A stretch of 64,000 nt of DNA. Origin: Verrucomicrobium sp. (GTDB lineage Bacteria; Verrucomicrobiota; Verrucomicrobiia; Methylacidiphilales; UBA1321). Positions within the stretch are counted from its first letter, which is position 1; the number at the start of each line of letters is the position of its first letter. The stretch is taken from the NCBI GenBank assembly GCA_017849585.1, contig JAFIGT010000015.1, forward strand, positions 1 to 64,000, in the 5' to 3' direction. Of the stretch, positions 1 to 27,981 are shown piece by piece. The position numbers were made by a program, and so were the translations under genes. The notes beneath the pieces were generated by a model. It worked only from the letters and a program-made list of their open reading frames with translations. It did not search any database and had not been told where the DNA came from.

Positions 1-319
1 CGGCCTCCGGCCGAATACGCCAAACGCACTGTGGCCAACAACCCAACGAACCGTACCACCCCGCCGAAAATAACTCTGCCCCTGGCCTAAAAAATGGGAG
101 CAGGTCAATCAGGTTAAATCCTCTCACTCAATCTGGACCAGTTTCAGGGGACCCAATCACAAACGCATGAATCGGGACGGTCGATAAAATGGAGCCGAAT
201 AGCCCAACTCTTTTGACATAGCACGAGAGTGCTGCAATTGACGCTCGCAAAAATTTAATAAAAATTCAGCGGCTTCACATGCAGAAATAGAGTTTCCCAT
301 TGCTTTGGTAGGATCAAAA
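1..319. other. left-edge region with possible gene remnants
   Basis: Frame 1 on the plus strand is open from the window edge to a TAA at 88-90 and could be the last 29 codons of a gene that begins outside the window; I do not recognise the peptide. From 91 to 319 there is no convincing gene. A 60-codon minus-strand frame (157-339) exists but overlaps the end of the lipoprotein gene and matches nothing I know. The region is compatible with the ragged edge of a genomic island. Confidence 0.3.
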
Positions 320-631: not shown

Positions 632-644
632 GAATTGATAAAAT

Positions 645-683
645 GTCCCGTATTTCGGGACAAGTAAATCCCATTTTTTGGGA
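645..683. promoter_or_regulatory. double palindromic operator between divergent genes
   Basis: Two inverted repeats of the same form lie back to back. GTCCCGTATTTCGGGAC (645-661) can be extended to 7-bp arms at 644-662, and TCCCATTTTTTGGGA lies at 669-683. Both have the pattern TCCC-R-N5-Y-GGGA, and their centres are 23 bp (about two helical turns) apart. They sit immediately upstream of the XRE gene start (685) and 14 bp from the lipoprotein start. This is the layout expected for a cooperative autoregulatory operator of the neighbouring HTH protein; the assignment is inferred. Confidence 0.6.
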
Positions 684-684
684 C

Positions 685-897
685 ATGCGAGCATCGCCTT
701 ATGATAAAAAAGTGGCTGAGTTCTTGCGCTCAAGGCGTGGCGAGCAAACCTATCGGGACTTTGCGCCAAGGTTGGGCATGAGCCGCTCGACTCTCCATCG
801 CCTTGAGAATTTGGAACAGTCGGTCACTCTCGCTAAGTTGCATGCTATCGCTCAGAGGCTGAGAACCAGCGTCGAGGCAATTCTCGGTTGGAAATGA
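685..897 (+). CDS. XRE-family helix-turn-helix regulator
   Basis: The gene encodes a 70-residue DNA-binding protein that is essentially a single HTH_XRE domain. A helix beginning KKVAEFLRSRR precedes 'TYRDFAPRLGMSRSTLHRLE', which matches the turn and recognition helix, and a fourth and fifth helix follow (LAKLHAIAQRL, VEAIL). The start at 685 was preferred to an in-frame ATG at 643 because the latter lies just upstream of the first operator palindrome (645-661), so its coding sequence would run through both palindromes and translate them. The product has the size and position of controller (C) proteins that time restriction expression, because hsdR begins 107 bp downstream. No target has been shown, and it could equally control only itself and the divergent lipoprotein. 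Confidence 0.75.
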   Translation: MRASPYDKKVAEFLRSRRGEQTYRDFAPRLGMSRSTLHRLENLEQSVTLAKLHAIAQRLRTSVEAILGWK

Positions 898-979
898 TCT
901 CAATACGCTATACAGCTCTCAGCAACGCATACTGAGCTGGATGCGGGTGATATCAACTTCCCCTCTCGACATTTCCTTT

Positions 980-1001
980 AGGGGGATTAATTTAAGCCCC
1001 T
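980..1001. promoter_or_regulatory. inverted repeat just before hsdR
   Basis: AGGGG (980-984) and CCCCT (997-1001) form an inverted repeat around an AT-rich 12-base centre and end 3 bases before the hsdR start codon. It would sequester the translation start as an RNA hairpin, or could act as a further regulator site; it differs in spacing from the palindromes at 645-683. No standard ribosome binding site is visible for hsdR. Confidence 0.3.
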
Positions 1002-1004
1002 GTA

Positions 1005-3809: not shown

Positions 3810-5215
3810 CTGAATTAGCTAAAAAGTGGAGGAAGATGCCCCTTGGCAAAGTTGGTCGCTGGTTCGGTGGTGGCACTCCCAGCAAAGCCAATCCGAAGTT
3901 TTGGACCAATGGCAAGATTCCTTGGGTGTCGCCCAAGGATATGAAGTGCGACATTATTCTAGACGCTCAGGATCATATAACTCCAGAAGCCGTAGCTCAT
4001 TCTGCCACCAATCTGGTCGAATCTGGAAGCGTTCTATTAGTAGTTCGTAGTGGCATTCTACAGCATACCCTTCCGGTAGCAGTGACCCAAAGACAAGTTG
4101 CCTTAAATCAAGACCTCAAAGCCGTCATGCCATTTGAGGGGGTGCGTTCCGATTACCTCGCGTTGGCTTTAAAAGCATTTGAGCAAGAGATTCTTCACAC
4201 CTGCACAAAAACGGGAACTACCGTACAGAGCTTGGAGCTCCCCGTTTTCTTAAAGTTTGAAATTCCAGTTGCCCCAGAAGATGAGCAGGCAGCTATTGTA
4301 AAGGAAATCGAAAAACAATTCACCCGACTTGATGCCGGGGTGACGGCATTAAAGCGAGTACAGGCCAATCTCAAACGCTATCGCGCTTCCGTTCTCAAAG
4401 CTGCTTGCGAAGGTCGCCTCGTCCCCACCGAACACGAACTCGCTCGCAAAGAAGGCCGCACCTACGAAACCGGAGAACAACTCCTCGCTCGCATCCTCAC
4501 CGAGCGCCGCCAAAAATGGCAAGGTCGCGGCAAATACAAAGAATTTGATTCGGCTGATACCTCCCATCTGCCTCCGTTACCCTTAGGCTGGACATGGGCA
4601 TCACCCGACAAGCTTGCCACATTCGATGATAACTCAATATGCGCCGGACCATTCGGAACAATTTTTAAAGCCCGCGATTTTCGCCCATCGGGGATACCTA
4701 TCATCTTTCTGCGTCATGTCTCAGCAGGGCGATACCTCACGCATAAGCCGGGCTTTATGGATGTAGGCAAATGGGAGGAGCTGTTTCGTCCATATTCCGT
4801 CTTTGGTGGAGAATTGCTGATCACAAAGCTTGGAGAGCCTCCCGGAGTCTGTGCGATTTACCCAAAAAACGTTGGGCCAGCGATGGTGACGCCTGACGTT
4901 ATTAAGCTTTCTGTTAACGAATCAGCTGTCTCACCAAGATACTTGATGCACTATTTCAATAGCGAAAACGCCCGTCACTTCTCCATCGGAGTCGCGTTTG
5001 GTACTACTCGTCTCAGATTGACAATACCAATCTTTCGTGAAATGCCCATTCCACTTCCGCCCCTCGCCGAACAAAAACGCATCGTGGCTGAAGTCGAACG
5101 CCGCCTCAGCGTCATCGACGAACTGGAAGCCGTCGTCTCCGCCAATCTCCAACGCGCCACCCGTCTCCGCCAATCCATCCTCCAGCAAGTGTTCAGTAGA
5201 GGAGTCGCATGTTAA
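3806..5215 (+). CDS. hsdS: type I restriction-modification specificity subunit (HsdS)
   Basis: This subunit reads the bipartite DNA target for both methylation and restriction. The 469-residue product has two target-recognition domains. TRD1 begins near residue 11 ('GRWFGGGTPSKANPKFW', then IPWVSPKDM). TRD2 begins near 253 ('LPLGWTWASPDKLATFDDN'). Each is followed by a conserved helix region (EDEQAAIVKEIEKQF and LAEQKRIVAEVERRL) of the type that sets the spacing between half-sites. The GTG at 3806, overlapping the hsdR stop, is taken as the start; an ATG at 3836 would leave TRD1 almost complete. The 3' end overlaps the next gene by 7 bases. Confidence 0.94.
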   Translation: MTELAKKWRKMPLGKVGRWFGGGTPSKANPKFWTNGKIPWVSPKDMKCDIILDAQDHITPEAVAHSATNLVESGSVLLVVRSGILQHTLPVAVTQRQVALNQDLKAVMPFEGVRSDYLALALKAFEQEILHTCTKTGTTVQSLELPVFLKFEIPVAPEDEQAAIVKEIEKQFTRLDAGVTALKRVQANLKRYRASVLKAACEGRLVPTEHELARKEGRTYETGEQLLARILTERRQKWQGRGKYKEFDSADTSHLPPLPLGWTWASPDKLATFDDNSICAGPFGTIFKARDFRPSGIPIIFLRHVSAGRYLTHKPGFMDVGKWEELFRPYSVFGGELLITKLGEPPGVCAIYPKNVGPAMVTPDVIKLSVNESAVSPRYLMHYFNSENARHFSIGVAFGTTRLRLTIPIFREMPIPLPPLAEQKRIVAEVERRLSVIDELEAVVSANLQRATRLRQSILQQVFSRGVAC

Positions 5216-6981
5216 CTGAAATCACGATCAAACGATTTAAAAATATCCGAAGTATTACACTCCCATTAGAGCGTATTAACATACTCATTGGTTCGAATAA
5301 TTCTGGTAAAAGCAGCATTCTTCAAGCGTTACAGTTTGCTGTGTCAGTAGGGCAAACATTAAAAACACTCAATATTAAATGGAAAGGAGGGCAGCTGAGT
5401 GAATCATTCCCTCAAAGTCGCCTCGTATATAGTCCGCTTAAGGACATTCCCTCTCTCGTCTATAACAGATGGTTTGGAGAAAAGCTTGATGGCGTTGAAG
5501 TCACTATGGTGGGAGAGGCATTGCCGCCTTTGCCAACCTCTAGCACGCCCGTGCTTCGGTTGGCGCCTCCAAGTTGCCGCTTAACAATGGACAAAGGAAG
5601 AGGGGAGTTCATCAAATGTACCGTTACTGGAATTGAGATTGGAAAAATGCTGGAGCCAATGAGTCCGCCTTATTCGGTTTACGTTCCGGGACTAGCAGGC
5701 ATTCCTGTTTTTGAAGAGCATCGATCTGAAGTATTAGTTAGAAAGGCAGCAGCCAGAGGCGATGCAAACAGCGTTTTCCGCAACATCCTTTGGTTGCTAT
5801 CGCAGGATAAAGTATTATGGAAATCATTCATTGGTGATTTTCAGCGCATATTCCCAGATCGCACCATTAGAGTCGGATTCCTGTCTAAACAAGACGAACA
5901 CATCAACGCGACTATAAGTTCGAATTTAGCGGAGCTTCCGATTGATGCGGCAGGAACAGGCATACTGCAAGCGATTCAAATTCTCGCCTATGTCAATCTC
6001 TACAAGCCGCGTCTTTTGATATTGGACGAACCCGATGCCCATCTTCACCCAAACAATCAAAGACGACTCGCCACTGTTCTCGCTGAAATTGCTGAACAAC
6101 GTGATTTTCAGATTATTCTCTCCACGCATTCGAGACACCTTCTTGACGCTCTGAAAAATGACGCGAGAATTCACTGGATTCGCAGTGGAACACGTGTCCC
6201 TGACGATCAGTATTCTGATGTTGAGGTTTTGATGGATGTTGGCGCGTTAGACAGAGGTGATCTTTTAAAAGCAGGAAAGACGAAATGTGTAGTCCTAACG
6301 GAGGATGATGATGTTTCATGCATAAAAGCCCTTTTAGATTCATCGGATTTCAATTTGAGTGAGACAGAGCTATGGCCATATAAGGGCTGTACAAAGCTCG
6401 ACACCGCACTCGCCTTAGCAAGTTTCATTCGAGCGCATGCTCCAGCTGCTAAGATTGTCTTCCATCGGGATCGCGATTACCTGACCGATGACGAAGTGGC
6501 GAAATACGAGATCGACCTTAAAAAGGACGCACGCCAAGCATTTGTTTTTGTAACTGAAGGAACTGACGCTGAATCGCATTTTCTAAACCCTGATCACCTT
6601 CACTTTTTAGAGCCTTCAATCGATGCAGCTACGGCTAGAGAGTTAATCGAACGAGCAACCACAGAATCTGCCGAAAAATCTCGAAAGGCCTTTATAAATT
6701 CGCGAAACCCTATCGAGGCAGCGAAACGTCGCAAAGAGGATAAATCGCCGGATGTTGGTACGCTGTGTGTAGAGTGCGAGAAATTATACGATTCAAATCC
6801 TGTTCGTTATAGGCACGGCAAAATGGTAATTCGCCGTCTTAGGCATATTCTACAAAATGAAAAGAAGGTAAATCCTGACCCCTTTAAAAAATCTGTATTC
6901 ATCAAAGATACAAAACTTTCCGCGATAGCAAATGATATTTGGCCACTCAACCCTTCGGCTAGCCCAACTTCTCCACCATGA
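5209..6981 (+). CDS. AAA ATPase with TOPRIM-like C-terminus, embedded in the hsd operon
   Basis: This is a 590-residue SMC/ABC-like ATPase of the AAA15/AAA21 type that includes OLD-family nucleases. It has Walker A GSNNSGKSS at about 28-36, a signature-like 'AAGTGILQ' before Walker B (LLILDEPDAHLHP, about 269), and the H-loop 'LSTHSRHLL'. The C-terminal half carries acidic motifs in TOPRIM order: LTEDDD at about 362 and HRDRD at about 420. This suggests a nuclease, though the first motif is not canonical. The gene overlaps hsdS by 7 bases and hsdM by 4 (ATGA), so it is an integral, co-translated member of the operon. It is clearly more AT-rich than hsdR, hsdS and hsdM, which suggests separate acquisition. 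Restriction-linked ORFs (the Rlo group) of other hsd loci are the closest known parallel in context. Its function is not known. Confidence 0.85.
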   Translation: MLTEITIKRFKNIRSITLPLERINILIGSNNSGKSSILQALQFAVSVGQTLKTLNIKWKGGQLSESFPQSRLVYSPLKDIPSLVYNRWFGEKLDGVEVTMVGEALPPLPTSSTPVLRLAPPSCRLTMDKGRGEFIKCTVTGIEIGKMLEPMSPPYSVYVPGLAGIPVFEEHRSEVLVRKAAARGDANSVFRNILWLLSQDKVLWKSFIGDFQRIFPDRTIRVGFLSKQDEHINATISSNLAELPIDAAGTGILQAIQILAYVNLYKPRLLILDEPDAHLHPNNQRRLATVLAEIAEQRDFQIILSTHSRHLLDALKNDARIHWIRSGTRVPDDQYSDVEVLMDVGALDRGDLLKAGKTKCVVLTEDDDVSCIKALLDSSDFNLSETELWPYKGCTKLDTALALASFIRAHAPAAKIVFHRDRDYLTDDEVAKYEIDLKKDARQAFVFVTEGTDAESHFLNPDHLHFLEPSIDAATARELIERATTESAEKSRKAFINSRNPIEAAKRRKEDKSPDVGTLCVECEKLYDSNPVRYRHGKMVIRRLRHILQNEKKVNPDPFKKSVFIKDTKLSAIANDIWPLNPSASPTSPP

Positions 6982-8435
6982 CCGCATCAACACTCGTCCC
7001 GAAACTTTGGAATTACTGCAACATCTTGCGGGATGACGGCCTCTCGTATGGGGATTACGTCGAGCAGTTGACGTATCTGCTTTTCCTGAAGATGGCGGAT
7101 GAACAGTCGCGTCCACCATTCAAGAAACCCTCGCCCATTCCCAAGGGGTTTGGGTGGGATGTGTTGATTACGTTGGATGGTGATGATCTCGAAACGCATT
7201 ACCGCCATACGCTCGAAGAGCTGGGCAAGCGTCCCGGCATGTTGGGCGTCATCTTCCGCAAGGCGCAAAACAAGATTCAAGACCCGGCCAAGCTACGTCG
7301 CTTGATCGTTGACCTTATCGACAAGGAAGTGTGGTCAAGCCTCGAAGCCGATGTAAAAGGCGACGCCTACGAAGGGTTGCTCCAAAAGAACGCGGAAGAC
7401 GTTAAGGGTGGTGCGGGTCAATACTTCACCCCTCGCGCCCTGATAGCGGCAATCGTTGAGGTGATGGCTCCCAGTCCTGATATCACCATCTGCGATCCAG
7501 CCTGCGGGACTGGGGGCTTTCTCCTCGCCGCGCACGATTACATCGTGAAGCATCACGAACTCGATAAATCGCAAAAGAAGAAACTCAAGAACGGCACACT
7601 CTTTGGCGTCGAGTTGGTCGATAGCGTCACCCGCCTGTGCGCGATGAATCTTTTGCTGCACGGTGTCGGCAGCGAGTCAGACGCTGACATGCCAGTGGTG
7701 TCCAAGGATGCCTTGGCCGGGAAGCATGGCGAGTACGAGATGGTGTTGGCCAATCCGCCCTTTGGAAAGAAGAGCAGCGTTACCATCGTCAATGAATCTG
7801 GGGAGCAGCAGAAAGAATCACTCGTTATCAACCGCGATGATTTCTGGGCATCGACCTCGAATAAGCAACTCAACTTCCTCCAGCACATCTTCACCATCCT
7901 CAAGCAACACGGCCATGCCGCTGTCGTCTTGCCCGATAACGTCCTCTTCGAGGGTGGTGCTGGCGAAACGATCCGCCGTGAATTGCTAAAGCAGGGCGAT
8001 GTTCACACGCTTCTGCGCTTGCCTACGGGTATCTTCTACGCGCAAGGCGTGAAGGCGAATGTCCTTTTCTTTGATCGCAAACCAGCTCAGGAGAAGCCAT
8101 GGACACAAAAGCTCTGGATATACGATCTCCGCACCAATCAACATTTCACCCTCAAGGAAAACACTCTCAAACGGAGTGACCTTGATGAGTTTGTGAAGTG
8201 CTACAACTCCAAGAATCGCCACAACCGCAAAGAGTCAGAGCGTTTCAAGTCGTTCACCTATGACGAGCTTATCAAGCGGGACAAGGTCAACCTCGATATC
8301 TTCTGGCTCAAGGATGACGCCCTCGAAGACTCCGCCAACTTGCCCGATCCTGATATCATCGCCCAAGAAATCACGGATGACCTCGAAGCCGCTCTGGAGC
8401 AATTCGCCACCATCGCCGAGGATTTGAAAAAGTAG
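6978..8435 (+). CDS. hsdM: type I restriction-modification methyltransferase subunit (HsdM)
   Basis: This is the N6-adenine DNA methyltransferase subunit, which protects the host target and forms the M2S core with HsdS. The 485-residue protein has an N-terminal helical HsdM_N domain (WNYCNILRDDG through about residue 140). The SAM-binding motif DPACGTGGF is at about 173, the catalytic NPPFG at about 259, and a C-terminal region that interacts with HsdS follows. The start ATG overlaps the stop of the ATPase gene (ATGA). It is the last gene of the operon; a GC-rich hairpin near 8490-8507 may end the transcript. Confidence 0.96.
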   Translation: MTASTLVPKLWNYCNILRDDGLSYGDYVEQLTYLLFLKMADEQSRPPFKKPSPIPKGFGWDVLITLDGDDLETHYRHTLEELGKRPGMLGVIFRKAQNKIQDPAKLRRLIVDLIDKEVWSSLEADVKGDAYEGLLQKNAEDVKGGAGQYFTPRALIAAIVEVMAPSPDITICDPACGTGGFLLAAHDYIVKHHELDKSQKKKLKNGTLFGVELVDSVTRLCAMNLLLHGVGSESDADMPVVSKDALAGKHGEYEMVLANPPFGKKSSVTIVNESGEQQKESLVINRDDFWASTSNKQLNFLQHIFTILKQHGHAAVVLPDNVLFEGGAGETIRRELLKQGDVHTLLRLPTGIFYAQGVKANVLFFDRKPAQEKPWTQKLWIYDLRTNQHFTLKENTLKRSDLDEFVKCYNSKNRHNRKESERFKSFTYDELIKRDKVNLDIFWLKDDALEDSANLPDPDIIAQEITDDLEAALEQFATIAEDLKK

Positions 8436-8711
8436 ACTGGCGTAGGACTCTCTAAAGAATCATTACATATACCCGGTTAAGGGGTGGGGGAGTGGGGCTG
8501 CCCCCTCTTCCTCCTGTAGTGGCAAACGCACTCGGCGACATCCGCAAAAATATGACGTTCGCCTTTGTAGTGTGAGGCTGGCTCAATAGTGTTTACCCTA
8601 TTTTACAGCCTTAAACTGGAAACGGCAGGTTCTTACTATTGTTCTTATTTTGCCTATTTTTAGAAGCTCTAAAATATTAAACTATTTATAGAGAGGAAGA
8701 TATAAAAAGAG
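8436..8711. other. intergenic region after hsdM
   Basis: No gene is seen. A GC-rich run (8481-8507) can fold into a hairpin around CTG (8498-8500), but the downstream T-run is poor, so it is only a possible terminator. The remainder (about 8580-8711) is strongly AT-rich, unlike the flanking chromosome, and ends at the 3' end of the tRNA gene. Confidence 0.4.
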
Positions 8712-8792
8712 TGCGCTCGAGAGGACTCGAACCTCCACGGTGTTACCCACTAGAACCTGAATCTAGCGCGTCTGCCATTTCGCCACGAGCGC
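8712..8792 (-). tRNA. tRNA-Leu (anticodon CAG)
   Basis: Read on the minus strand, the gene has a perfect 7-bp acceptor stem (GCGCTCG / CGAGCGC) with discriminator A. The D-arm contains GGCAGACG, and the anticodon stem CTAGA/TCTAG closes the loop TTCAGGT, giving anticodon CAG. A 13-base variable region follows, then a T-arm with TTCGAGT. The long variable region and anticodon identify a class II leucine tRNA. CCA is not encoded. The 3' end faces the restriction island, the usual side for integration of mobile elements. Confidence 0.95.
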
Positions 8793-9103
8793 AAAGCTAA
8801 TTTCATCCCTTGCATCGGCTTGCGCCGACGCAATGAATCGAAATTGATTGGGAATCTTCGTGGCAGAGGCTGATTGGCGCAAGCTTAAAGTGAAAAATAA
8901 ACCGATGGGTAATTTTTAATAAAAAGGATCGGGGTTAAGGCAATATGCAACTTGTTGTCAAAAGGTAGATTAAGGTAGTATTTGTTTTGAGAAGAAGGTG
9001 TCTGCGACTCCTTCGGAAAAGTGGTACGTTTTTAGCTGGCGGTAAGGGAGTGCAACAACAAGATGAAGTCATAAACGACTGAGCAGAAGGGTGATTTGAC
9101 GCC
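8793..9103. other. intergenic region between tRNA-Leu and the ATP-grasp gene
   Basis: No gene is seen. It should hold the tRNA promoter near 8800 (minus strand) and the promoter of the ATP-grasp operon. A candidate for the latter is TTGTTG (8952-8957) with TAGTAT (8976-8981), spaced 18 bases, which would leave a leader of about 115 bases before the start at 9104. Confidence 0.35.
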
Positions 9104-10546
9104 ATGGCGCTTTTAGACAAATACCAACCGGAGGAATTTTTTGACGAGATGTTTACGGCGCCTCAGAAGGTGAGGCCCCACTATTTGGAGTTGTTCAAGC
9201 GCTTTCAGGCACTGGACACAGACGAATTTGAGCAACGGCGGCAGGCGGTGGATGCTTCCTTTTTGCGGCAGGGCATCACGTTCACGGTTTATAGCGATGA
9301 ACGGGGTACGGAGCGCATTTTCCCGTTTGATCTGATGCCGCGCATCATTCCGGCGTCGGAGTGGGATTTGATTGAGAAGGGGCTGACGCAGCGGATTATC
9401 GCGCTGAATAAATTTCTGCACGATATTTATCACGAGCAGCGGATCATCAAGGAGGGGATCGTTCCGAAGGAGTTCGTTTACGGAGCGAAACATTTCCGTC
9501 CCGAGTTCATGAATTTCAATGTGCCGCGGGATATTTATATCCACATTTGCGGATCAGATCTCGTGCGCGATGGAGACGGCACCTATTATGTCCTTGAGGA
9601 TAACGGTCGTTGTCCCTCGGGGGTGTCGTATCTGCTGGAAAATCGGCAGGCGATGAAGCGCGCTTTCCCGAATCTCTTTGATCGGGTGGGCGTGCGTCCA
9701 GTGGATCATTATCCGGAAGAGCTGCTGAACATGCTCAAGTACATTGCGCCGCCGAGCAAGGGCAATCCGAACGTGGTATTGTTGACGCCGGGTTATTATA
9801 ACAGCGCTTATTTCGAGCATTCGTTCCTGGCTCGTCAGATGGGTATTGAGATTGTGGAGGGGCGCGATCTGACGGTGCAGGATGAGCGGGTGTATATGCG
9901 TACGACGAAGGGTCTGCAGCAGGTGGATACGATTTATCGCCGCATTGACGATGACTTCCTTGATCCGCAAGTGTTCCGGAAGGATTCCGTGCTCGGCGTG
10001 CCGGGCTTGGTGAGCGCCTACCGCGCGGGTAACGTGAGCTTGGCGAATTCGATCGGTACGGGCATCGCGGACGACAAGGCGATGTATTATTTCGTGCCGC
10101 AGATGATCAAGTTCTATCTGAGCGAAGAACCGATCTTGAAGAATGTGCCCACCTATCTCGGTTCGAATGAGAGTGATCGCAAATACATCCTGGAGAATAT
10201 GTCGAAGCTGGTGGTGAAGGCGGCCAACGAGTCCGGTGGTTACGGAATGATCGTTGGCAGCAAGGCAACGCGCGCTGAACTGGCCGACTTCAAGGCAAAG
10301 GTACAGGCCGACCCGCGCAATTACATCGCGCAGCCGATTCTGGCGCTGTCGCGGCATCCGAGCTTCTGTGATGGCACGTTTGAGGGGCGGCACATTGACT
10401 TGCGTCCCTACATTCTGTATGGGGAGAAGATCACGATTGTCCCCGGTGGATTGACGCGCGTGGCGTTGCGCAAGGGATCTCTCGTGGTGAATTCCTCGCA
10501 GGGTGGCGGCAGTAAGGACACCTGGGTTTTGCGGGGGGAACACTAA
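9104..10546 (+). CDS. circularly permuted ATP-grasp protein (COG2308 type)
   Basis: The 480-residue protein belongs to the family of circularly permuted type 2 ATP-grasp proteins (formerly DUF404/DUF407). Family features are the stretch '[20 protein letters not shown]' (about 150-170), the segment '[20 protein letters not shown]' and the closing 'RPYILYG...[12 protein letters not shown]'. ATP-grasp enzymes ligate a carboxylate to an amine or thiol. For this family, comparative genomics predicts a peptide-like or amide-forming reaction, but the substrate is unknown. The alpha-E gene begins one base after its stop, and the pair is a widely conserved two-gene unit. The transglutaminase-like partner often found with it is absent here. 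Confidence 0.92.
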
Positions 10547-19281: not shown

Positions 19282-20196
19282 TCAGCCCTTGGCGGTGACG
19301 ATGTCTTGCGCGATCTGGCTTTTGAGGGCGTCGAGGGAGTCGAATTTCTTTTCTTCGCGGAGGAAGTGGAAGTCGGCGAGTTCGAGCGGCTGTTCGTAGA
19401 GGTCGCCGGTGAAGTCGAGGAGGTGGGCTTCGACGGAGAAACCGGCGTTGACGGTGGGGCGGGTGCCGATGTTGAGGACGGCGCGGGCGGTGCGGTCGGC
19501 GAGTCGCGCGGTGCAGGCGTAGACGCCGGAGGGGGGGATCATTTGGGTGATGTCGCCGAGGTTGGCGGTGGGGAAGCCTATGGTGCGGCCGCGGCCGTCG
19601 CCACGGATGACGCGGCCAGCGATGGCGTAGGGTCGTCCGAGGAGGAGCGCGGTGAGGGGGAAGTCGCGTTCGGCGATGGCTTCGCGGATGCGGGTGCTGC
19701 TGGCGATCTGGCCTTCGATGAGGAGGGGGGGCACTTCGTGGACGTTGAACCCTTTTTGTTTGCCAACGGCGGTGAGCAGTTCCGCGTTGCCCTGGCGGTT
19801 TTTGCCGAAGGACCAGTTGGGACCCATGCCGATGGCGCGGAGGTGAGGAATGACGCGGAGGAGTTCGTTGAGGAACGCTTCGGCGGAGAGTTCGCGGGTG
19901 GTGGGGTCGAAGGCGAGGGTGATGACTTCGGCGACTCCGGCGTGGAGGAGGAGCTGGCGCTTTTGGTCAGCGTTGGTGAGTCGCTTGGGGGCGCGCTCGG
20001 GGGCGATGATTTCGAGCGGGTGGGGCTCGAAGGTGATGATCGCGGTGGCGGCGGGATTGGCCGCGTCCTTGATGAGCCGGGCGACGACTTGCTGGTGGCC
20101 GCGATGGAAGCCGTCGAACACGCCGATCGCGACATGGGTTAGCGCGGGGCGCGCAGGCTGGTTGCGGAGGGGGAGGACTGTCGGTTGGCTGCTCAC
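19282..20196 (-). CDS. ribF: bifunctional riboflavin kinase / FAD synthetase
   Basis: This cytoplasmic enzyme makes FMN from riboflavin and then FAD. The 304-residue protein has an N-terminal nucleotidyltransferase domain with IGVFDGFHRGHQ (the HxGH-like motif, about 26-37). Its C-terminal riboflavin-kinase domain contains GRVIRGDGRGRTIGFPTANL (about 193-212). Its length is typical. It follows nrnA and truB on the same strand, a well-known neighbourhood, but is separated from truB by about 110 bp filled with an inverted repeat. Repeats therefore flank the gene on both sides. Confidence 0.96.
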   Translation of the reverse strand: MSSQPTVLPLRNQPARPALTHVAIGVFDGFHRGHQQVVARLIKDAANPAATAIITFEPHPLEIIAPERAPKRLTNADQKRQLLLHAGVAEVITLAFDPTTRELSAEAFLNELLRVIPHLRAIGMGPNWSFGKNRQGNAELLTAVGKQKGFNVHEVPPLLIEGQIASSTRIREAIAERDFPLTALLLGRPYAIAGRVIRGDGRGRTIGFPTANLGDITQMIPPSGVYACTARLADRTARAVLNIGTRPTVNAGFSVEAHLLDFTGDLYEQPLELADFHFLREEKKFDSLDALKSQIAQDIVTAKG

Positions 20197-20208
20197 AGTG
20201 GGGTTAAG

Positions 20209-20297
20209 AAGTACTGAGTTCTATGTACTAGGTTCTAGGTAGGGAGGAGGTTTCTTCTCAAGCTTTTACTTAGTACCTAGAACTTAATACCTCGTAC
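20209..20297. repeat. long inverted repeat of TTCTAGGTACTTAGTAC type
   Basis: The left arm starts AGTACTGAGTTCTATGTACT (20209) and continues GGTTCTAGGTA. The right arm (about 20266-20297) reads TACTTAGTACCTAGAACTTA and then ATACCTCGTACT, its imperfect reverse complement. Arms of about 32 bases are separated by about 25 bases, so the RNA would form a long hairpin between truB and ribF. The arms are related to the repeats at 19216 and 61094. Confidence 0.6.
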
Positions 20298-20308
20298 TTT
20301 TCCACTCG

Positions 20309-21022
20309 CTACGCGCGGCGCAGTCGCGAGATCTCGGGCAGGGTGAGGATCGCGGGGGCGAGTTCGGCGGCGGTGTTGAGGCCTTGCATCTTTTCCCAGC
20401 TGATGGCGCGGTCGAGGGTGAAGTTGCCGGACTTGATGCGGGAGAGTTGGATGAGGTGGGCGCCGCAGCCGAGTTTCTGCCCGATGTCGTGGCAGTAGGT
20501 GCGGACGTAGAAGCCTTTGCTGCAGCCGATTTCGAATTTGAGTTCGGGGCTGGCCCAGTGGTGGATGCGGTAGTAGCTGATGTGGACGAGGCGGGGTTCG
20601 CGTTCGACGGTTTTTCCGGCGCGGGCGAGTTTGTAGAGGGGGACGCCTTGTTTTTTCAGCGCGGAGACCATCGGGGGAATCTGGTAGAAGTCGCCGGTGA
20701 ATTCCTTCATGACGGCTTCGACTTGTTCCTGCGTGAGGGTGGGGACCGGTTTTTCCTCGGTCACTTTGCCGTCGGAATCTTGGGAGTCGGTGACTTGGCC
20801 GAGTTTCATGGTGCCGATGTAGGCCTTGTCTTCCGCCATGAGGAGGTCCTGGATCTTGGTGGCTTTGCCGATGACGAGCATGAGCAATCCCGTCGCAAGC
20901 GGATCGAGGGTGCCGCAGTGGCCGACTTTTTTGAACTGGAAGCGGCGTCGCACGAAGTCAACGATGTCGTGGGAGGTGCAGCCGGTGGGTTTGTCTACGA
21001 GGAGTACGCCGTCAATGTCCAT
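20309..21022 (-). CDS. truB: tRNA pseudouridine(55) synthase
   Basis: This enzyme converts U55 of tRNA T-loops to pseudouridine. The 237-residue product starts at 21022, giving [19 protein letters not shown], the normal TruB N-terminus; a longer frame to 21193 has no family match. The catalytic Asp is in [15 protein letters not shown] (about 35-49), and the motif [17 protein letters not shown] is present. The protein is shorter than E. coli TruB and appears to lack the C-terminal PUA domain. It lies 73 bp downstream of nrnA. Confidence 0.95.
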
Positions 21023-21095
21023 AGGAAGGGGAGTTTTTATTAAAGCGGGTTGAGTCGGGGGTAAAGTGGAATTGCTGGAGCGAGCGGAGCACGGC

Positions 21096-22064
21096 CTACG
21101 CGGCGAGTGCTTTCCGGATGTCAGCGATGACGCCGACTTCGAGTTCGGCGAGGGGGAGTTTGCTGCGGATACCGGCGGCGAGTCGATGGCCACCGCCGCC
21201 GTATTTGGAGGCGATTTGCTGGACGTCGACCTTGCCGCGGGAGCGGAGGCTGACGCGGGTGAATTCTTCGTCGGTCTTTTCGATCATGAAGGCGACTTCG
21301 ACGGTCTTGACCATCTGGATCGATTCGATGAGTCCTTCGGTGTCCTCGGAGCTGGTGCCGGTGCGGGCGTAGATATCGTTGTTGAGGTGAAAGTAGGAGA
21401 TGGTGGCGTCGTCGAGGAACTGGGTGTCGTTGAGGGCTTCGCGCAGGAGGAGCAGGCGGCCGAGGGTGAAGCTGGAGTAGCATTGCTGCGCGAGGTCGGT
21501 GGGATCGGCTCCGGCGCGGACGAGGTCGGCGGCGATTTCAAAGCTGCGGGCCGTGGTCTGGCGATGGCGGAAGGAGCCGGTGTCGGTGGAGAGGCCGACG
21601 AAGAGATTGGCGGCGATGTCGGCGTTGAAGGGAAGATTCTCGGCGCGGATCAATTCGTAGAGCACTTCGGCGGTGGCGGGGACGTCGGGGATGATGCAGT
21701 TGAGCGGGGCGTATCCGGCGTTGCTGATGTGGTGGTCGATGTTGACGTCGGGGGTGCGCTTCCAGCCGTGGAAGACTTTGCCGAGGCGGATCTGGTCGGC
21801 GGTGTCGAGGGCGATGATCTTGCGGTCGGCTTCGACGGCTTCGACGGGCGTGGCGATGAGGGTGTCCGCGCCGGGGAGAAAACGGTAGCGCTCGATCATG
21901 CCGTCGGCGTTGCAGGCGAGAACGTCCTTGCCCATGGCGCGGAGGCAGAGGGTGAGGGCGAGGGTGGAACCGTAGGCGTCGCCATCGGGGCGGATGTGGG
22001 CGAACACGGCAAATTTGTCGTGTTGTCGCAGGAAGTCGCCAATGGTTTTAAACAGGGAGGTCAT
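21096..22064 (-). CDS. nrnA: DHH/DHHA1 phosphoesterase, NrnA-like oligoribonuclease/pAp phosphatase
   Basis: This enzyme is likely to degrade short RNA oligomers and dephosphorylate 3'-phosphoadenosine 5'-phosphate. The 322 residues show the metal-binding DHH motifs [12 protein letters not shown] (about 22-33), LDTAD (about 89-93) and NIDHHISN (about 107-114). The C-terminal DHHA1 substrate motif is [10 protein letters not shown] near 288. Genome neighbourhood supports the call, since nrnA is commonly adjacent to truB and ribF in the rbfA region. The gene starts the co-directional series nrnA-truB-ribF. Confidence 0.93.
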
Positions 22065-22197: not shown

Positions 22198-23154
22198 CTA
22201 CTTCATGAAGAACATGACGTAACCGGCGCCGCCGATGATGAGGATCATCGAAACGACGAGAATGACCAGCAGGGGGTTGGTCTTTTTCTGGCCCGAGTCG
22301 GGCTTTTGCAAATCACTGTAGACAATGGGCCGGTTGCCGGTGAGGTAGGTGTTGTCCGAGGCGGGAGGGGCTCCGCTGGGTTTGGGCAGTGGCGCGGTTT
22401 TTTTGTGGAAGGGGATTTTTTCTTCGACGGGTTCGAGTTCGGTCGGGCTGGGCATGCGCAACTTGGGGCGTTTGACGGAGGACTCGAATTTGAGGATGAC
22501 GGGGCCGATCTGGATCTGATCGCCAAGTTGGAGGATGACCTCGGTGATTTGCGCGCCGTTGACGTAGGTGCCGTTGGAGGAATTAAGGTCGCGTACGATC
22601 ACGTCGCTGCCGCTGAGGATGAACATGCAGTGGCGGCTGGAGATGGCGGGATAGGCCAGGGTGATCTCATTGTTGAGCACGCGACCAAGGTGGGTGTACT
22701 CCTCGGTTAACTCAAAGCTGCGTCCGATCTCGTCGCCTTCGATGACGGTGAGTTTCGGCTGGCCACCCTGGATGCGCGTCATGATGACGGGCGCGACGGC
22801 GACATTGTTGCCGCCTACTTCAATCGGTGCGGAGGGAGTGCCTTGATCGGCGCGGAGGGCACCTTCGAAAAGCAGTTGCTCCCAAGTTTGTGTGACTGTG
22901 CGCTTGTTCGGAAGGAGTGCTTCATCGAAGTTGAATGCACCCACAGGCCAGGAGAGCATGCGGAAGACGGCCTCGGCTCCTTCGAAACCATCGGCGGTGG
23001 CGTGGATGATCTGCCCATGTTGCAGGAAAATGATGCCAGCTTTCTCCAGTGCGCGATACGTGATCTGCCCGCTGCGGTTGGCCTGGCAGCACATCTGGAT
23101 GATTTCTGGCAGGCCCATCTGGCCATTGGATTCAACTCCGTAAGGTCCGTTCAT
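22198..23154 (-). CDS. DUF4388-FHA-transmembrane protein
   Basis: This 318-residue signalling-type protein has three parts. A DUF4388 (PATAN-like) domain occupies about 1-105 (SGQITYRALEKAGIIFLQHG is typical). An FHA domain occupies about 135-225 with GR at 157, SSRH at 172-175 and NSSNGTYVNG at 191-200, which are the phosphothreonine-binding residues. A Pro/Lys linker follows, and one C-terminal transmembrane helix lies at about 293-316. The domains should face the cytoplasm as a tail-anchored protein that recruits phosphorylated partners; no Ser/Thr kinase is encoded in the window. It is divergent from, and shares a 150-bp promoter region with, the roadblock/MglA operon, so a common function is likely. 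Confidence 0.88.
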   Translation of the reverse strand: MNGPYGVESNGQMGLPEIIQMCCQANRSGQITYRALEKAGIIFLQHGQIIHATADGFEGAEAVFRMLSWPVGAFNFDEALLPNKRTVTQTWEQLLFEGALRADQGTPSAPIEVGGNNVAVAPVIMTRIQGGQPKLTVIEGDEIGRSFELTEEYTHLGRVLNNEITLAYPAISSRHCMFILSGSDVIVRDLNSSNGTYVNGAQITEVILQLGDQIQIGPVILKFESSVKRPKLRMPSPTELEPVEEKIPFHKKTAPLPKPSGAPPASDNTYLTGNRPIVYSDLQKPDSGQKKTNPLLVILVVSMILIIGGAGYVMFFMK

Positions 23155-23186
23155 AATCGACTAAAATGACGAATAATTGTTAGAGC

Positions 23187-23215
23187 TTGGACTTATTATG
23201 GGTTACGTCTCTAAT
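23187..23215 (+). promoter_or_regulatory. candidate promoter of the roadblock/MglA operon
   Basis: TTGGAC (23187-23192) and TCTAAT (23210-23215) are separated by 17 bases and lie about 90 bases upstream of the start at 23306. The match is 4/6 and 5/6 to sigma-70 boxes. Confidence 0.35.
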
Positions 23216-23305
23216 TCTCAATAATTCGGATTGCATCTACCCATAAAGAGTGCACCATCTTGGCTCAAACACAAGACCGTAAAGCGGCAGCAATCATACA
23301 CGATC

Positions 23306-25564
23306 ATGAGCTCAGGATTTTTAGGTGGTTTATTCGGGAAAAAAGATAAAAACCCGCAGCAGCCGCCTGCACCTCCGGCACCTAAGCCGGTTCCTGCTCC
23401 TGCTCCCGCTTCGAAATTACAGCCTGGCTTAACTCCCGTTCCGGCCCGCACGAATATCGGTGCGGCGACGACGCAACCGATGGTGTTGCCGAAAAGCGGC
23501 GGTCTCAAGCCGGCGAAGCCCGCATTGATCAGTGGTGGAAAATCAACGCAACGGATCGTGCTTCCCGGGCGCAGTGCGGATGCGGCGGGTGCTCAGCCGA
23601 ACATGCCAGCGGGTAATTTGAGTTTGCCGCTGGGCATGATTGTGCGGTTGCTGCCGGAGTCGGTTCGCGCGATTTCGATGGCGGAATTTGAAGCGTTGCC
23701 TGAAGCGGATCAGGATGTCTCCTTGCCACTCGGTTTGATTTTGCCGCAGCTCCCTTCGGGCAAGGTGGAAGTTGCGGTGCAGGAGCTCGTCGCGGCGATT
23801 CCGCGCAATTATGTTCGCCCCCAGGAAGAAATCGCGCCGCACCTCGGTACGCTGGTTTCGATGCCGCTGATGGATGTAGTGATGCGCATTCCGCCGGATA
23901 TGCTGGCGTTGCGTCCCGATCAAAAGGAAGTAGATGCCGCCGTGGTCAACATGGCCGATCCCTTCACGGAAGAACTTTTGCGCGAGCAGGCGGAAGCCGC
24001 GCGCAAGGCGGAAGCGGAAAAGCAAGCGGCCGCCGCACCGGCCCCGGTTGCTCCGACGCCTCCCGCGCCGACCACTCCGGTCGCGCCTCCTTCTCCAGTG
24101 GCTTCGCAGCCTCTTCCCGAAGGCATGCCGACGATCCCGCTGCCGCGCCCTGTGGCAGGCAAACCGCCCGTAACGCCCACGGTGCCGCCTCCGGCCCCGT
24201 TCAAGTCGGCTTCCGGCCCCCGTCCGCCGAGCATCTCGTTGCCTCGGCCCGGCGCGCGTCCGCCGACGCCTCCCACTCCGGTGGCTCCTGCCGCTGCGGC
24301 TCCCGTGGTGCCTCCCGCGCCTCCGGCTCCGATTGTCCCGCCGCCGGCCCCGGTGGCTCCCGCTCCTGTCGAAGCGCCTGCCGCTACCGAGGGTGGTTTG
24401 AGCGAAGAAATGAAGCAACTTTTGGCTGCCGCCGAAGCGGAACTCGGCGAGGGTGGCAAGCAGGATAGTCCCGTCGTTCCTGAGCCGGTCGAAGAAAAAG
24501 CGGCGGCTCTTCCGCCCGCTCCTCCGCTGCCGCCCGCCCCGGTGGTGCCGGAACCCGAGCCGGTGATCGAACCTGCACCTGTGGCGGCCACCCCTCCCCC
24601 TCCCATCCCAGCCCCGATGCCGCCCCCTCCGCCGATGGCGATCAAGCCGCCCCCGACTCCTACTCCGATTGCGCCTCCGCCGCCCGCTCCGCGAGCGGTC
24701 ACGCCTCCGCCGCCCCCCGCGGCGAAACCGGCCGTATTGCCTCCACCTCCGGCCCCGATGGCCGTGCCGCCTCCGCCTGCCCCGGCTCCGGTGGCTGCCG
24801 CTCCCGCAGTCGAGGAAGCTCCGGCACCGACTCCGATCCCGGCTCCTGCTCCTGTGGTGGTTCCACCCCCGCCCGCCCAGGCGATTCCAGCTCCGGTGGC
24901 CGTGGCCGCTCCCAGCGTTCCCGCGCCAACACCCACTCCTGCTCCCGTTGCTCCCAAGGCGGCGACGCGTTCGGTCGATCTCAACACGTGCAGCGTCGAT
25001 CAATTGGCCGCGTCGGGTTGCCCCCGGTTGTTGGCCGAAGCGATTGTCGGATATCGCGCCAATCAAGGGCCGTTCCGCCGTCTCGAAGATTTGTTGAAAG
25101 TTCCGGGCATCACCAAGGCGGCCTACGCCTTGTTGACCGGCAAGGAAGTCACGACGGAGGATCTGCTCGGCTCGGTCAACGAAGTGCTGGGTTTCCCCGC
25201 CGATCAGGAAGTGGGCCTGAAGGATATCACCGACCGCATCAGCCAATGGCCCGATGTGACCGGTTGCGTCCTCGGCCAGGCCAGTGGATTGCCGTTGGTC
25301 GGCAAGGTTCCGGCGGGCTTGGAAAAGAGCGCCGTCATGGCCTTCGTGCCGCGCATGCTGTCGGAACTCAATGGTTCCTTCAAGGAATTCTCCGGTCGTG
25401 AGACGAATGAACTCTCCATTCCCACCAAGGGAACGAGTTACCATATCTTCCGCAACGACAAGCTTTACCTCGTGATCATGTCACGCCGCCGCCAACTGCC
25501 GCGCCGTTACACGAAAGTTGCAAGGTATGTCTTGTCGAGTATTGATGCCTCCCGGCATCAATAA
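23306..25564 (+). CDS. proline-rich HhH-roadblock fusion protein
   Basis: This 752-residue protein has an architecture I do not recognise as a named family. The start at 23306 gives MSSGFLGGLFGKKDKN. Residues about 105-215 hold a non-repetitive domain with a recurring pattern: SLPLGMIVRLLPE, SLPLGLILPQLP, then VSMPLMDVVMRIP. A short Ala/Glu helix (218-240) leads into about 310 residues of Pro/Ala/Val low complexity. At about 557-615 a ComEA-like helix-hairpin-helix follows (VDLNTCSVDQLAASGCP...LLKVPGITKAAY). The C-terminus (about 628-745) is a roadblock/LC7-like domain (DITDRISQWPDVTGCVLGQ). Roadblock proteins bind small GTPases, and an MglA-like GTPase is encoded 18 bp downstream. Here the HhH probably mediates protein contacts, although DNA binding is possible. 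Confidence 0.8.
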   Translation: MSSGFLGGLFGKKDKNPQQPPAPPAPKPVPAPAPASKLQPGLTPVPARTNIGAATTQPMVLPKSGGLKPAKPALISGGKSTQRIVLPGRSADAAGAQPNMPAGNLSLPLGMIVRLLPESVRAISMAEFEALPEADQDVSLPLGLILPQLPSGKVEVAVQELVAAIPRNYVRPQEEIAPHLGTLVSMPLMDVVMRIPPDMLALRPDQKEVDAAVVNMADPFTEELLREQAEAARKAEAEKQAAAAPAPVAPTPPAPTTPVAPPSPVASQPLPEGMPTIPLPRPVAGKPPVTPTVPPPAPFKSASGPRPPSISLPRPGARPPTPPTPVAPAAAAPVVPPAPPAPIVPPPAPVAPAPVEAPAATEGGLSEEMKQLLAAAEAELGEGGKQDSPVVPEPVEEKAAALPPAPPLPPAPVVPEPEPVIEPAPVAATPPPPIPAPMPPPPPMAIKPPPTPTPIAPPPPAPRAVTPPPPPAAKPAVLPPPPAPMAVPPPPAPAPVAAAPAVEEAPAPTPIPAPAPVVVPPPPAQAIPAPVAVAAPSVPAPTPTPAPVAPKAATRSVDLNTCSVDQLAASGCPRLLAEAIVGYRANQGPFRRLEDLLKVPGITKAAYALLTGKEVTTEDLLGSVNEVLGFPADQEVGLKDITDRISQWPDVTGCVLGQASGLPLVGKVPAGLEKSAVMAFVPRMLSELNGSFKEFSGRETNELSIPTKGTSYHIFRNDKLYLVIMSRRRQLPRRYTKVARYVLSSIDASRHQ

Positions 25565-25582
25565 TGCTGAGAGATCAAATTC

Positions 25583-26269
25583 ATGGCGTTCATCAACTAT
25601 TCCAGTCGCGAGATTCAGCTCAAGATCGTCTATTACGGCGCGGCCTTGTGTGGGAAGACGACGAATCTCGTTACACTCCACAAGCAGATTACCCACGCGC
25701 AAAAGGGCGAATTGGTTTCGCTCGCCACAGATGCGGACCGAACGCTCTTCTTCGACTTTCTCTCACTGAACACGAAAACGCTGCCGGGGTTCACCACCCG
25801 TTTCCAACTCTACACGGTGCCTGGTCAGGCGATTTACAACACCACCCGGCAGCTCGTGCTCAAGGGCGTCGACGGCATCGTCTTTTGCGTTGATTCGCAC
25901 TGGGACAAGATGGCGGACAATGTGGAATCCTTCGCCAATCTTCAGGAGAATCTCATCGAGAATCACCTCAGCCTGGCGCAGATCCCGTATGTGCTGCAGT
26001 ACAACAAGCGCGATATCCCGAATGCCGCGCCCATCAATTACCTCGAATACACCTTCAACAACCGGGCCAACCGGGCGCTGGCTTTTGAAGGGGTTGCTTC
26101 CACCGGCAAGGGTGTATTGGAAACACTCAACGCGGCCGCCCGACTCTTGTTGGCCAAGTACTCCAAGACCCCGAACCCGAATGTGACAGGTTTGGCCAAG
26201 ACTGACTCCAGCTCCATTGTGCAACCTTTGCCGGATTCGCCCCAGCAGGGTAGCCCCGTCGCATCGTAA
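25583..26269 (+). CDS. MglA-like Ras-superfamily GTPase
   Basis: This is a small cytoplasmic GTPase switch of 228 residues. The nucleotide motifs are G1 YYGAALCGKTTNL (about 15-27), G3 as YTVPGQ (the MglA form of DxxGQ, about 75-80) and G4 YNKRDIPN (about 138-145). In Myxococcus MglA sets cell polarity and its activity is controlled by the roadblock protein MglB. No motility genes are seen here, so the process controlled may be different. It is flanked by two roadblock-domain genes on the same strand with 18-bp gaps, a compact three-gene operon. Confidence 0.92.
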   Translation: MAFINYSSREIQLKIVYYGAALCGKTTNLVTLHKQITHAQKGELVSLATDADRTLFFDFLSLNTKTLPGFTTRFQLYTVPGQAIYNTTRQLVLKGVDGIVFCVDSHWDKMADNVESFANLQENLIENHLSLAQIPYVLQYNKRDIPNAAPINYLEYTFNNRANRALAFEGVASTGKGVLETLNAAARLLLAKYSKTPNPNVTGLAKTDSSSIVQPLPDSPQQGSPVAS

Positions 26270-26287
26270 AGATCAGAGGATAAAAAT

Positions 26288-26761
26288 ATGACAGGTATCG
26301 GAATGCTCACCCCCGAGGATCAAGCTCTGATCCAAAACTTGCTCAATGAATTCATCAAGAAGTCCGAGGCCCAATGGTCGGCTCTGGTGGATAAAGGCGG
26401 CAATCTCTTCGCCCAGCAGGGCAATACCGGCAGCTTGGATCTCAGTATCCTTTCCGCTCTCGCCGCCGGTTCCTTTGCCGCCACGCACGAACTCGCCAAG
26501 CGTCTCGGTGAATCCGAATTCAGTGCGCTCTATCATGAAGGTCAGGGCCAGCACATTCTGATGAGCGCGCTCCATTGCGAATGTCTGCTCGTGACCATCT
26601 TTGGTGACAAGACGAACATCGGTCTCGTCCGTTTCTACGCACAGCAGGTCACCGAACAACTCAACGCCATCCTGAAGCAGATTCAGGCCAAGGAAGCGAC
26701 GATGGCGCCGCTCATCGTGGAAGGCGATTTCCTGAGCTCGGATACCGCGGCAATCTCGTAA
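26288..26761 (+). CDS. stand-alone roadblock/LC7 domain protein (MglB-like)
   Basis: The 157-residue protein has a single roadblock/LC7 fold. The helix EDQALIQNLLNEFIKKSE is followed by the strand WSALVDKGGNLFAQQGNTG, the helix LSILSALAAGSFAATHELAKRLG, and the strands ILMSALHCECLLVTIFGDKT. By position and length it is the likely regulator (GAP/GEF-like) of the GTPase encoded immediately upstream. A good ribosome binding site (AGAGGA) precedes the ATG. It ends the operon; a GC-rich palindrome follows at 26770-26788. Confidence 0.85.
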   Translation: MTGIGMLTPEDQALIQNLLNEFIKKSEAQWSALVDKGGNLFAQQGNTGSLDLSILSALAAGSFAATHELAKRLGESEFSALYHEGQGQHILMSALHCECLLVTIFGDKTNIGLVRFYAQQVTEQLNAILKQIQAKEATMAPLIVEGDFLSSDTAAIS

Positions 26762-26856: not shown

Positions 26857-27426
26857 CTACGGATTGATCGTGATCGGCGTGCGTGCGGAGAGTTCCGGGT
26901 AGTTGCTCATGGCGACTTCCACGGTATAGGCTCCCGGTGCGGGCGGGGCGGCAAATTCACCGAGGGCGACTGTCTCGGAATAGCTGATAATGTCGCCGGC
27001 ATTGATGAGGATGGTCCCGATCGCTTCGACGAATTCCTTGTCGGCGGACCAGGTGTAAACGATCTGGCCGGAGGCGCTCTTCACGCTGATGTCGTAGCGC
27101 TGGGAGTTGGGGAAGGAGAGGGTGTAGGTGCGCTTGCCCTTGTTACGCACGGTGAGGGTGACCTTGATGCTGGGGCGTCCGCTGGGGGATTCCTCGGCGG
27201 CTTTGATGGAGAGCGGATTGGGCGTGACCTCGATCTTGGTCTCCATGTCGGCGAAATCGATGGCGTTGGCGCGTTGAATGCGCTTCGGGTCGCCGGAGAA
27301 AATGCTGAAGCGCTTGGCGCCGGGGTTCACAAACTTGTCCGGTACGGTGTTCTTGCTGGGGTCCACTTCGGCGGCCAGCAGGGGGAGGGTACAAAGGCAA
27401 AGCAACAACGTGGCAAGTCGAGTCAT
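26857..27426 (-). CDS. secreted BsuPI-domain protein
   Basis: This 189-residue predicted exported protein starts at 27426, which gives a clear signal peptide (MTRLATLLLCLCTLPLLAAE, cut after LLA or AAE). Residues about 60-185 match the BsuPI (intracellular proteinase inhibitor) beta-sandwich domain. The match includes the 'SVKSASGQIVYTWSADKEFV' strand pair, a Gly-Thr turn (AIGTILINAGDI), and the terminal PGAYTVEVAMS. BsuPI in Bacillus inhibits a protease, but most family members are uncharacterised. It is divergent from the SecD-head-like gene across 75 bp. Confidence 0.72.
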   Translation of the reverse strand: MTRLATLLLCLCTLPLLAAEVDPSKNTVPDKFVNPGAKRFSIFSGDPKRIQRANAIDFADMETKIEVTPNPLSIKAAEESPSGRPSIKVTLTVRNKGKRTYTLSFPNSQRYDISVKSASGQIVYTWSADKEFVEAIGTILINAGDIISYSETVALGEFAAPPAPGAYTVEVAMSNYPELSARTPITINP

Positions 27427-27501
27427 TGGGGCGAGGTTATCAAGCGCGGGGGTGAATTCAAACTTTTTGCTATTTGCGGCGGGCTTGGATACTTTGGGGG
27501 C

Positions 27502-27981
27502 ATGCAAGATCGAGTCTTGAGACCTCTGCTGGGTGCGTTGTTTTTCACGGCAATTTTCATGGTGGGCGTGGCGGGCTCCAAGCCGCCGCAATCGACTTTC
27601 CGCGTGCACGTGCAGACCGTGGAGCAAGGCGCGCCGGGGACGCAGATTTTGCCGGTAACCTTGTTGAATCCTCCGAAGCAAATCATGGTCCGGGCACAGC
27701 CGGAGCTTTCCGAGCGCGATGTCGTCAAGATTGAATCGGCGCCGGCGGAATCCGGCGGCGTGGCGCTACGCCTGACTCTGAGCGAGCATGGCAGCATCGT
27801 GATTAATGCGGTGACGACGGATAACCAGGGTCGTATTCTGGTCTTTTTTCTGAATGGGCGGGTGGTTTACGCCCCGGTCATCGACAAAACAATCAGTGAC
27901 GGAGTCCTGATTATTCCCGGTGCGGTGGCTCCGGAGGAAGTCAAGCCGCTAGAAGAGGCGGCGAAGAAGGCGCGCAAGTAG
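27502..27981 (+). CDS. secreted SecD P1-head-like protein
   Basis: A signal peptide (LLGALFFTAIFMVGVAG) is followed by a domain resembling the P1 head subdomain of SecD: LRLTLSEHGSIVINAVTT, then GRILVFFLNGRVVYAPVIDK, then a Gly-rich ISDGVLIIPG turn and PEEVKPLEEAA. The total length is 159 residues, so the RND membrane domain of SecD is absent. Isolated SecDF P1-head proteins occur in several phyla, but their job is unknown. The start at 27502 was chosen because it begins the signal peptide; the longer frame upstream is antisense to the BsuPI gene. Confidence 0.7.
   Translation: MQDRVLRPLLGALFFTAIFMVGVAGSKPPQSTFRVHVQTVEQGAPGTQILPVTLLNPPKQIMVRAQPELSERDVVKIESAPAESGGVALRLTLSEHGSIVINAVTTDNQGRILVFFLNGRVVYAPVIDKTISDGVLIIPGAVAPEEVKPLEEAAKKARK

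Follow-up and report, generated by a model that had tools for sequence, protein, structure and literature searches.

The window, that is, the whole stretch of 64,000 nucleotides analysed here, lies on contig C39 of a verrucomicrobial genome of 4.79 Mb that is 96% complete. It carries four neighbouring genes (Table 1), all found where an earlier note on this DNA had placed them. The genes for a large fusion protein, an MglA-type GTPase and an MglB-type roadblock protein are consecutive on the plus strand, with spacers of 18 bp between the fusion gene and mglA and again between mglA and mglB, and a gene for a DUF4388-FHA-TM protein is divergent. For the fusion gene, an alternative longer ORF begins at a TTG start at 23231. 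The promoter region that the FHA and fusion genes had been said to share stands as a divergent intergenic gap of 151 bp; as a promoter signal it does not, the scans of this gap giving a count equal to that of shuffles, with no excess over chance.

Pfam searches of the window proteins support the DUF4388, FHA, HhH, Ras/Arf-type GTPase and, in the stand-alone roadblock protein, Robl_LC7 domains. The GTPase keeps GxxxxGK[ST], DRT (R53), TVPGQ (T78, Q82) and NKRD, as befits the Ras-like enzyme that had been proposed. The stand-alone roadblock protein, whose gene adjoins mglA, reaches E 4e-51 against M. xanthus MglB with its family profile and matches MglB structures; the gene order is mglA-mglB here and mglB-mglA in most outgroup loci. 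The divergent gene encodes a DUF4388 domain, which we take to be PATAN (PF14332), an FHA domain that retains the canonical GR, SSRH and NGTYVNG residues, and a hydrophobic C-terminal tail, in keeping with its earlier description as a tail-anchored protein.

Two observations concern the flanks. Downstream of the FHA gene and on the same strand lie genes presumably of the DHH-phosphoesterase, truB and ribF types (window 19282-22064), for which a common transcript is possible. On the other side, the adjoining gene (26857-27681, minus strand) carries a BsuPI (intracellular proteinase inhibitor) domain (E 2.6e-20).

Table 1. Genes and protein features of the four-gene locus, in window positions
Feature	Position	Strand	Basis
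PATAN(DUF4388)-FHA-TM protein, 318 aa; putative module input protein, FHA version	22198..23154	-	Pfam
C-terminal transmembrane segment (tail anchor), hydrophobic LLVILVVSMILIIGGAGYVMFF	22210..22275	-	Seen in translation
FHA domain, residues 155-217	22504..22692	-	Pfam E 1.3e-16, over cut-off
DUF4388/PATAN domain, residues 12-104	22843..23121	-	Pfam E 5.4e-16, over cut-off
LPL domain - Pro-rich linker - HhH - roadblock protein, 752 aa from ATG	23306..25564	+	63 homologues with both end domains
N-terminus MSSGFLGGLFGKKDK, short hydrophobic/basic, putative membrane-targeting	23306..23350	+	Family motif
N-terminal LPL domain, residues about 104-200, undescribed fold (predicted)	23615..23905	+	AlphaFold2 pLDDT 91.6, pTM 0.70
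Pro-rich linker, ~300 residues	24029..24940	+	29% Pro across N-to-roadblock stretch
ComEA-type helix-hairpin-helix, residues 555-611	24968..25138	+	Pfam HHH_3 E 1.9e-13; profile match to ComEA 1.6e-20
Roadblock/LC7 domain of fusion protein (predicted)	25193..25555	+	Profile, hhalign, AlphaFold2, Foldseek
MglA-type Ras-like GTPase, 228 aa, P-loop GAALCGKT	25583..26269	+	E 3e-62 to M. xanthus MglA
MglB-type roadblock protein, 157 aa	26288..26761	+	Pfam Robl_LC7 4.7e-10

The fusion protein and its end domains

The multi-domain fusion with a long Pro-rich linker announced by the earlier note is real, and its homologues were counted as the distinct proteins that possess both the LPL and the roadblock end domains. 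The window fusion protein does not reach the roadblock gathering score in Pfam; because Pfam and ncbifam alone miss this domain, the missing call is no refutation. A profile of 25 fusion sequences matches roadblock chains of the PDB (best 1.6e-10) and aligns with MglB profiles over 100 columns (hhalign probability 92.6, E 4.5e-7). The AlphaFold2 model of the C-terminus, built from 25 homologues, has a pLDDT of 92.5 and the roadblock order a-bb-a-bbb-a, and with Foldseek it retrieves roadblock and MglB structures, MglB 6hjm, 6h5b and 6izw among them, at probability 1. By the agreement of these four tests on profiles and models, to which may be added that iteration of the roadblock HMM recruits MglB proteins too, the fusion C-terminus is a roadblock fold, and the locus encodes the two roadblock proteins that had been claimed for it. 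In eight rows of Akkermansiaceae/Verrucomicrobiaceae type, the LPL domain is recognised and the roadblock is weak or missed by the HMM used.

The triple LPL motif noticed earlier near the N-terminus also proved meaningful, since it forms the core of a domain kept in 77 distinct loci. In the confident AlphaFold2 model its repeats fold compactly into four strand-helix units. Foldseek found no fold match in the PDB (best E 3.8) and no match in the BFVD viral library, 38 members gave nothing significant in Pfam, and the sequence search against the PDB gave nothing below E 0.08. The modelled domain would thus be a new fold, in a sense relative to PDB and BFVD alone. Some homologues carry two or three LPL copies. 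Orphan proteins of ~150 aa, nearly the LPL domain alone, were found without MglA in four genomes (L193-L196), which counts against the module reading given below; inspection of their neighbours by eye revealed no informative common gene.

Ahead of the LPL domain, a short hydrophobic-basic motif occurs in 34 of 50 fusion homologues versus 41 of 527 neighbouring proteins; the Fisher p of 4e-22 is descriptive only, as the motif was drawn up after inspection of the family. This conserved, short and amphipathic N-terminus probably tethers the scaffold to the membrane, so that a membrane tether may sit on the fusion besides the FHA protein.

Conservation across Verrucomicrobiota and beyond

Genome searches were combined with the mapping of 127 loci using iterative HMMs. 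The Verrucomicrobiota clade of the MglA tree takes in Lentisphaerota and Kiritimatiellia, and its support is modest (SH-aLRT 82). Within its 84 rows, an LPL protein is linked to MglA in 73 and present but unlinked in six, the remaining five lying near contig ends. The genes hence stay together well beyond this locus: with an LPL protein for 79 of the clade's 84 sampled MglAs, the module is no peculiarity of the window. Among 388 genomes of the phylum, 41 have a strong MglA, 41 an LPL domain and 36 both (Fisher p 7e-40, a value overstated because related genomes are not independent). Five genomes had MglA only: G223 has a fragment of MglA at a contig end, in G188, G200 and G235 the locus HMM found an LPL domain, and the fifth is G191. 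Weak MglA matches in one family (f5; E 1e-5, 27% identity) were set aside as other GTPases. Another family (f41) retains the complete fusion even though it is encoded on a different contig or 1.7 Mb from mglAB, so conservation of the fusion does not come from mere linkage. On this distribution, the fusion together with the MglA set makes up the usual MglA module of Verrucomicrobiota; outlying relatives occur in other phyla. The genes almost certainly act as one functional module.

Three loci from lineages outside the clade (L150, L154 and L158) encode the LPL protein and a small roadblock as separate genes of the same cluster. Their LPL domains score E 9e-8 to 2e-11, and their LPL proteins are multi-TM, with several hydrophobic N-terminal segments; most verrucomicrobial fusions have the short hydrophobic-basic N-terminus where these proteins have TM helices. 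The split genes would reflect either a fusion event within Verrucomicrobiota or fission in other lineages, and in either case their shared cluster indicates that the LPL and roadblock domains work together. The L158 cluster (1-9356, Methylomirabilota) starts with CheA/CheB/CheW genes, followed by REC-PATAN, a REC-roadblock fusion, the LPL protein, mglA and mglB, and has two further roadblock genes.

The closest relative of the window locus (L109; MglA 91% identical over 193 columns) comes from a genome labelled Betaproteobacteria, and its cassette suggests a misnamed verrucomicrobial genome bin.

The architecture, which had not been recognised from the sequence, is also absent from the open-access literature searched. 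Neither a description of an LPL-roadblock protein nor the combination of DUF4388 with a roadblock was found there, and subscription literature may hold an earlier description. The 2014 survey of Wuichet and Sogaard-Andersen (PMC4316618) was the only open-access work to treat Verrucomicrobia, MglA and type IV pili together. It already reports, as does Makarova 2006 cited there, an occasional MglA/MglB–PATAN gene neighbourhood; in the part of the survey consulted, Verrucomicrobia are mentioned once, and the LPL-linker-roadblock partner, its conservation and the link to PilB are not reported. The module is apparently undescribed and conserved throughout Verrucomicrobiota.

A proposed Mgl-like module with its own scaffold

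To our knowledge, detailed understanding of bacterial Ras-like polarity switches comes almost exclusively from Myxococcus. From sequences and gene neighbourhoods we infer, with reasonable confidence, that the four genes represent the MglA/MglB polarity module in the form it takes in Verrucomicrobiota, a form that would have its own membrane-tethered roadblock scaffold and control T4aP extension. A whole phylum would then use a separately built version, in which a second roadblock, a long disordered linker and a domain of unknown fold reside on one protein.

The M. xanthus polarity module (MglA, MglB, MglC, RomR/RomX) has orthologous MglA and MglB and, like the window set, a second roadblock protein. 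A phospho-signal protein and a long Pro-rich linker (there in RomR; PMC12719032) are further common features; so, on the proposed reading, is a T4P output through PilB (PMC11580455, PMC12719032, PMC10329633). In M. xanthus, MglC is a stand-alone roadblock with RomR, a REC protein, on one side and MglB on the other (PMC10329633), whereas in the window the second roadblock itself bears the Pro-rich linker, the LPL domain and the amphipathic N-terminus, and the input is PATAN-based. By analogy, the module may work like the RomR/MglC/MglB chain, with a fusion that is neither MglC nor RomR by architecture. With the scaffold tethered to the membrane by its N-terminus, its roadblock would dock on MglB and/or MglA, in the role that MglC has between RomR and MglB, and we consider such binding likely. 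The long linker would allow the two scaffold ends to act at a distance. Actinobacterial conservons (CvnA-D) are likewise four-gene modules, in which a roadblock protein and signalling partners accompany a Ras-like GTPase; they differ in having a histidine kinase and CvnC in place of PATAN and the LPL-roadblock protein, and the part of the conservon literature consulted describes no pilus link.

The signal would be supplied by the PATAN protein. The window protein has FHA and no receiver domain, and is therefore not of the REC-PATAN response regulator type; the same DUF4388-FHA layout is found in the sister locus L109. Among 26 syntenic PATAN partners sampled, 13 carry REC, two FHA, two PAS and one MshEN, and the remainder may hold divergent domains. 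In this comparison, PATAN is the constant part of the input protein and the sensory part (REC, FHA, PAS or MshEN) is swapped. FHA as the defining input was rejected because REC is usual in syntenic PATAN proteins. The phospho-dependent membrane switch, unlike the Myxococcus Mgl system, that the earlier note had envisaged accordingly survives as a Mgl-like module with its own scaffold, and not with FHA as its fixed input. In the window, FHA would recognise phospho-threonine at the membrane, a role that seems somewhat more probable than not for this domain, where relatives would use the receiver aspartate. The cyanobacterial PATAN-REC regulators PixE, PixG, PilG and TaxP2 are similar in that PATAN with a receiver serves as pilus-direction input, and REC-PATAN is also the layout of the majority of homologues of the window FHA protein; the window protein, for its part, carries FHA plus a tail anchor instead of REC, and no MglA/roadblock partner is described for the cyanobacterial regulators in the part of that literature consulted. 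Since PATAN domains are common (eight in the window genome), an adjoining PATAN gene is weaker evidence than it appears. After the REC-PATAN gene in ~11 loci comes a ~130-aa family with no Pfam match (L122 6001-6396 and relatives).

The window MglA has Ala at the Ras-G12 position (M. xanthus G21; PMC3000849), where Gly is usual outside the Verrucomicrobiota clade and not a strict family requirement. The 85 MglAs of the clade have Ala (51), Gly (22), Pro (11) or Ser (1) at this position, and 24 of the 27 outside it have Gly; the Gly is thus replaced in 63/85 members inside the clade versus 3/27 outside. Rab and Arf proteins have no Gly at the Ras-12 position and are still functional, so its replacement need not mean lost GTPase activity. 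In T. thermophilus, G21V lowers kcat ~sevenfold, as cited in the part of PMC3000849 consulted. These residues suggest that hydrolysis is controlled differently in MglA of the Verrucomicrobiota clade, where the very residue that turns Ras oncogenic when changed varies naturally. MglA genes of 376 and 541 aa with long extra regions occur in Sumerlaeota and Fibrobacterota (L160 10001-11128 and L184 10001-11623).

This prevalence of altered P-loops within the clade fits a possible, if rather unlikely, alternative in which the fusion roadblock would be a second regulator acting directly on MglA, as exchange factor or GAP co-factor and perhaps as a heterodimer with MglB, and would compensate for the replaced Gly. 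Roadblock pairs do serve as GEF/GAP platforms (Ragulator; MglB/RomY, PMC9481161). However, M. xanthus MglC, the nearest functional parallel, is without measurable effect on MglA GTPase activity (PMC10329633), and the replacement is not universal in the clade, having arisen or reverted several times (~8 Gly/non-Gly changes on the MglA tree). Such a regulator would overlap with the scaffold that we favour and is compatible with a pilus target. The module may also offer a model for how roadblock pairs became built into larger GTPase platforms.

Type IV pili as the probable target

No target had been named in the earlier note; the gene neighbourhoods point to PilB of the type IV pilus. In ten loci, a PilB-type ATPase gene lies immediately upstream of the fusion gene, often with a TPR-MshEN gene before it, and in two further loci such an ATPase gene adjoins or is near mglB. 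In L089 the order is PATAN-mglA-mglB-pilB-pilC-ntrC-pilin, with mglB and pilB overlapping. Armatimonadota clusters lie near PilM, PilQ and PilB, and L149 and L154 near PilM and PilQ. Presence or absence cannot test the pilus link, since PilT is found in 373 of 388 genomes. In published systems, M. xanthus MglA recruits PilB to the pole through SgmX (PMC11580455), and PilB is a binding partner of PATAN proteins in Synechocystis, as cited in the parts of PMC9090330 and PMC10519157 consulted.

We therefore regard T4P, or a closely related ATPase, as the likely target. In the proposed mechanism, PATAN would contact the extension ATPase PilB, as in cyanobacteria, and the state of MglA, GTP- or GDP-bound, would decide where or whether PilB engages. 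The LPL domain would hold or recruit part of the pilus machine, although its binding of a T4P component is a tentative proposal, put at somewhat less than an even chance. Bolder and rather doubtful is the idea that the LPL domain, as a new fold, grips the pilus base or PilB directly. The protein would then be a membrane-anchored, GTPase-controlled leash with the pilus motor at one end and MglA/MglB at the other, its roadblock replacing some of the catalytic control lost with the Ras-12 Gly. The scaffold module that we prefer would in any case offer a compact, testable path by which a Ras-like switch passes phospho-signals on to pilus extension.

The module could instead position another target, such as type II secretion, a surface organelle or adhesin, or cell envelope growth. 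PilB and GspE are hard to tell apart by profile cut-offs, the ATPase of L110 passing both and that of L089 the GspE cut-off only, and the window genome contains several PilB/GspE-type ATPases and pseudopilin clusters. Its PilB-type ATPases are on another contig (C7) and its PilT-type ATPase is also off-contig, none being linked at the window locus; PilB adjacency is concentrated in few clades, and a pilus gene within 10 kb is absent from most loci. Against these points, the pilus genes around L089, L149 and L154 and the action of both PATAN and MglA on PilB in the systems cited above make a target other than type IV pili improbable.

The helix-hairpin-helix announced for the fusion is present in the window protein, and it does not belong to the core architecture, as it is recognisable in only 25 of the 63 homologues. 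The fusion does not have the features of a ComEA DNA receptor: it has no secretion architecture, and in the window protein both hairpins are degenerate in the alignment (SGCP and PGIT in place of GxG). HhH as a DNA-binding core was rejected because most homologues have no recognisable HhH. A positioning role for the fusion linked to DNA or the chromosome, with HhH on DNA and the roadblock/MglA end joined to the membrane, is accordingly very improbable: the HhH is closest to ComEA and many homologues have intact GxG hairpins, but most have no recognisable HhH, the window protein and its sister L109 have lost both GxG motifs, and the neighbours are pilus genes, not chromosome-segregation genes.
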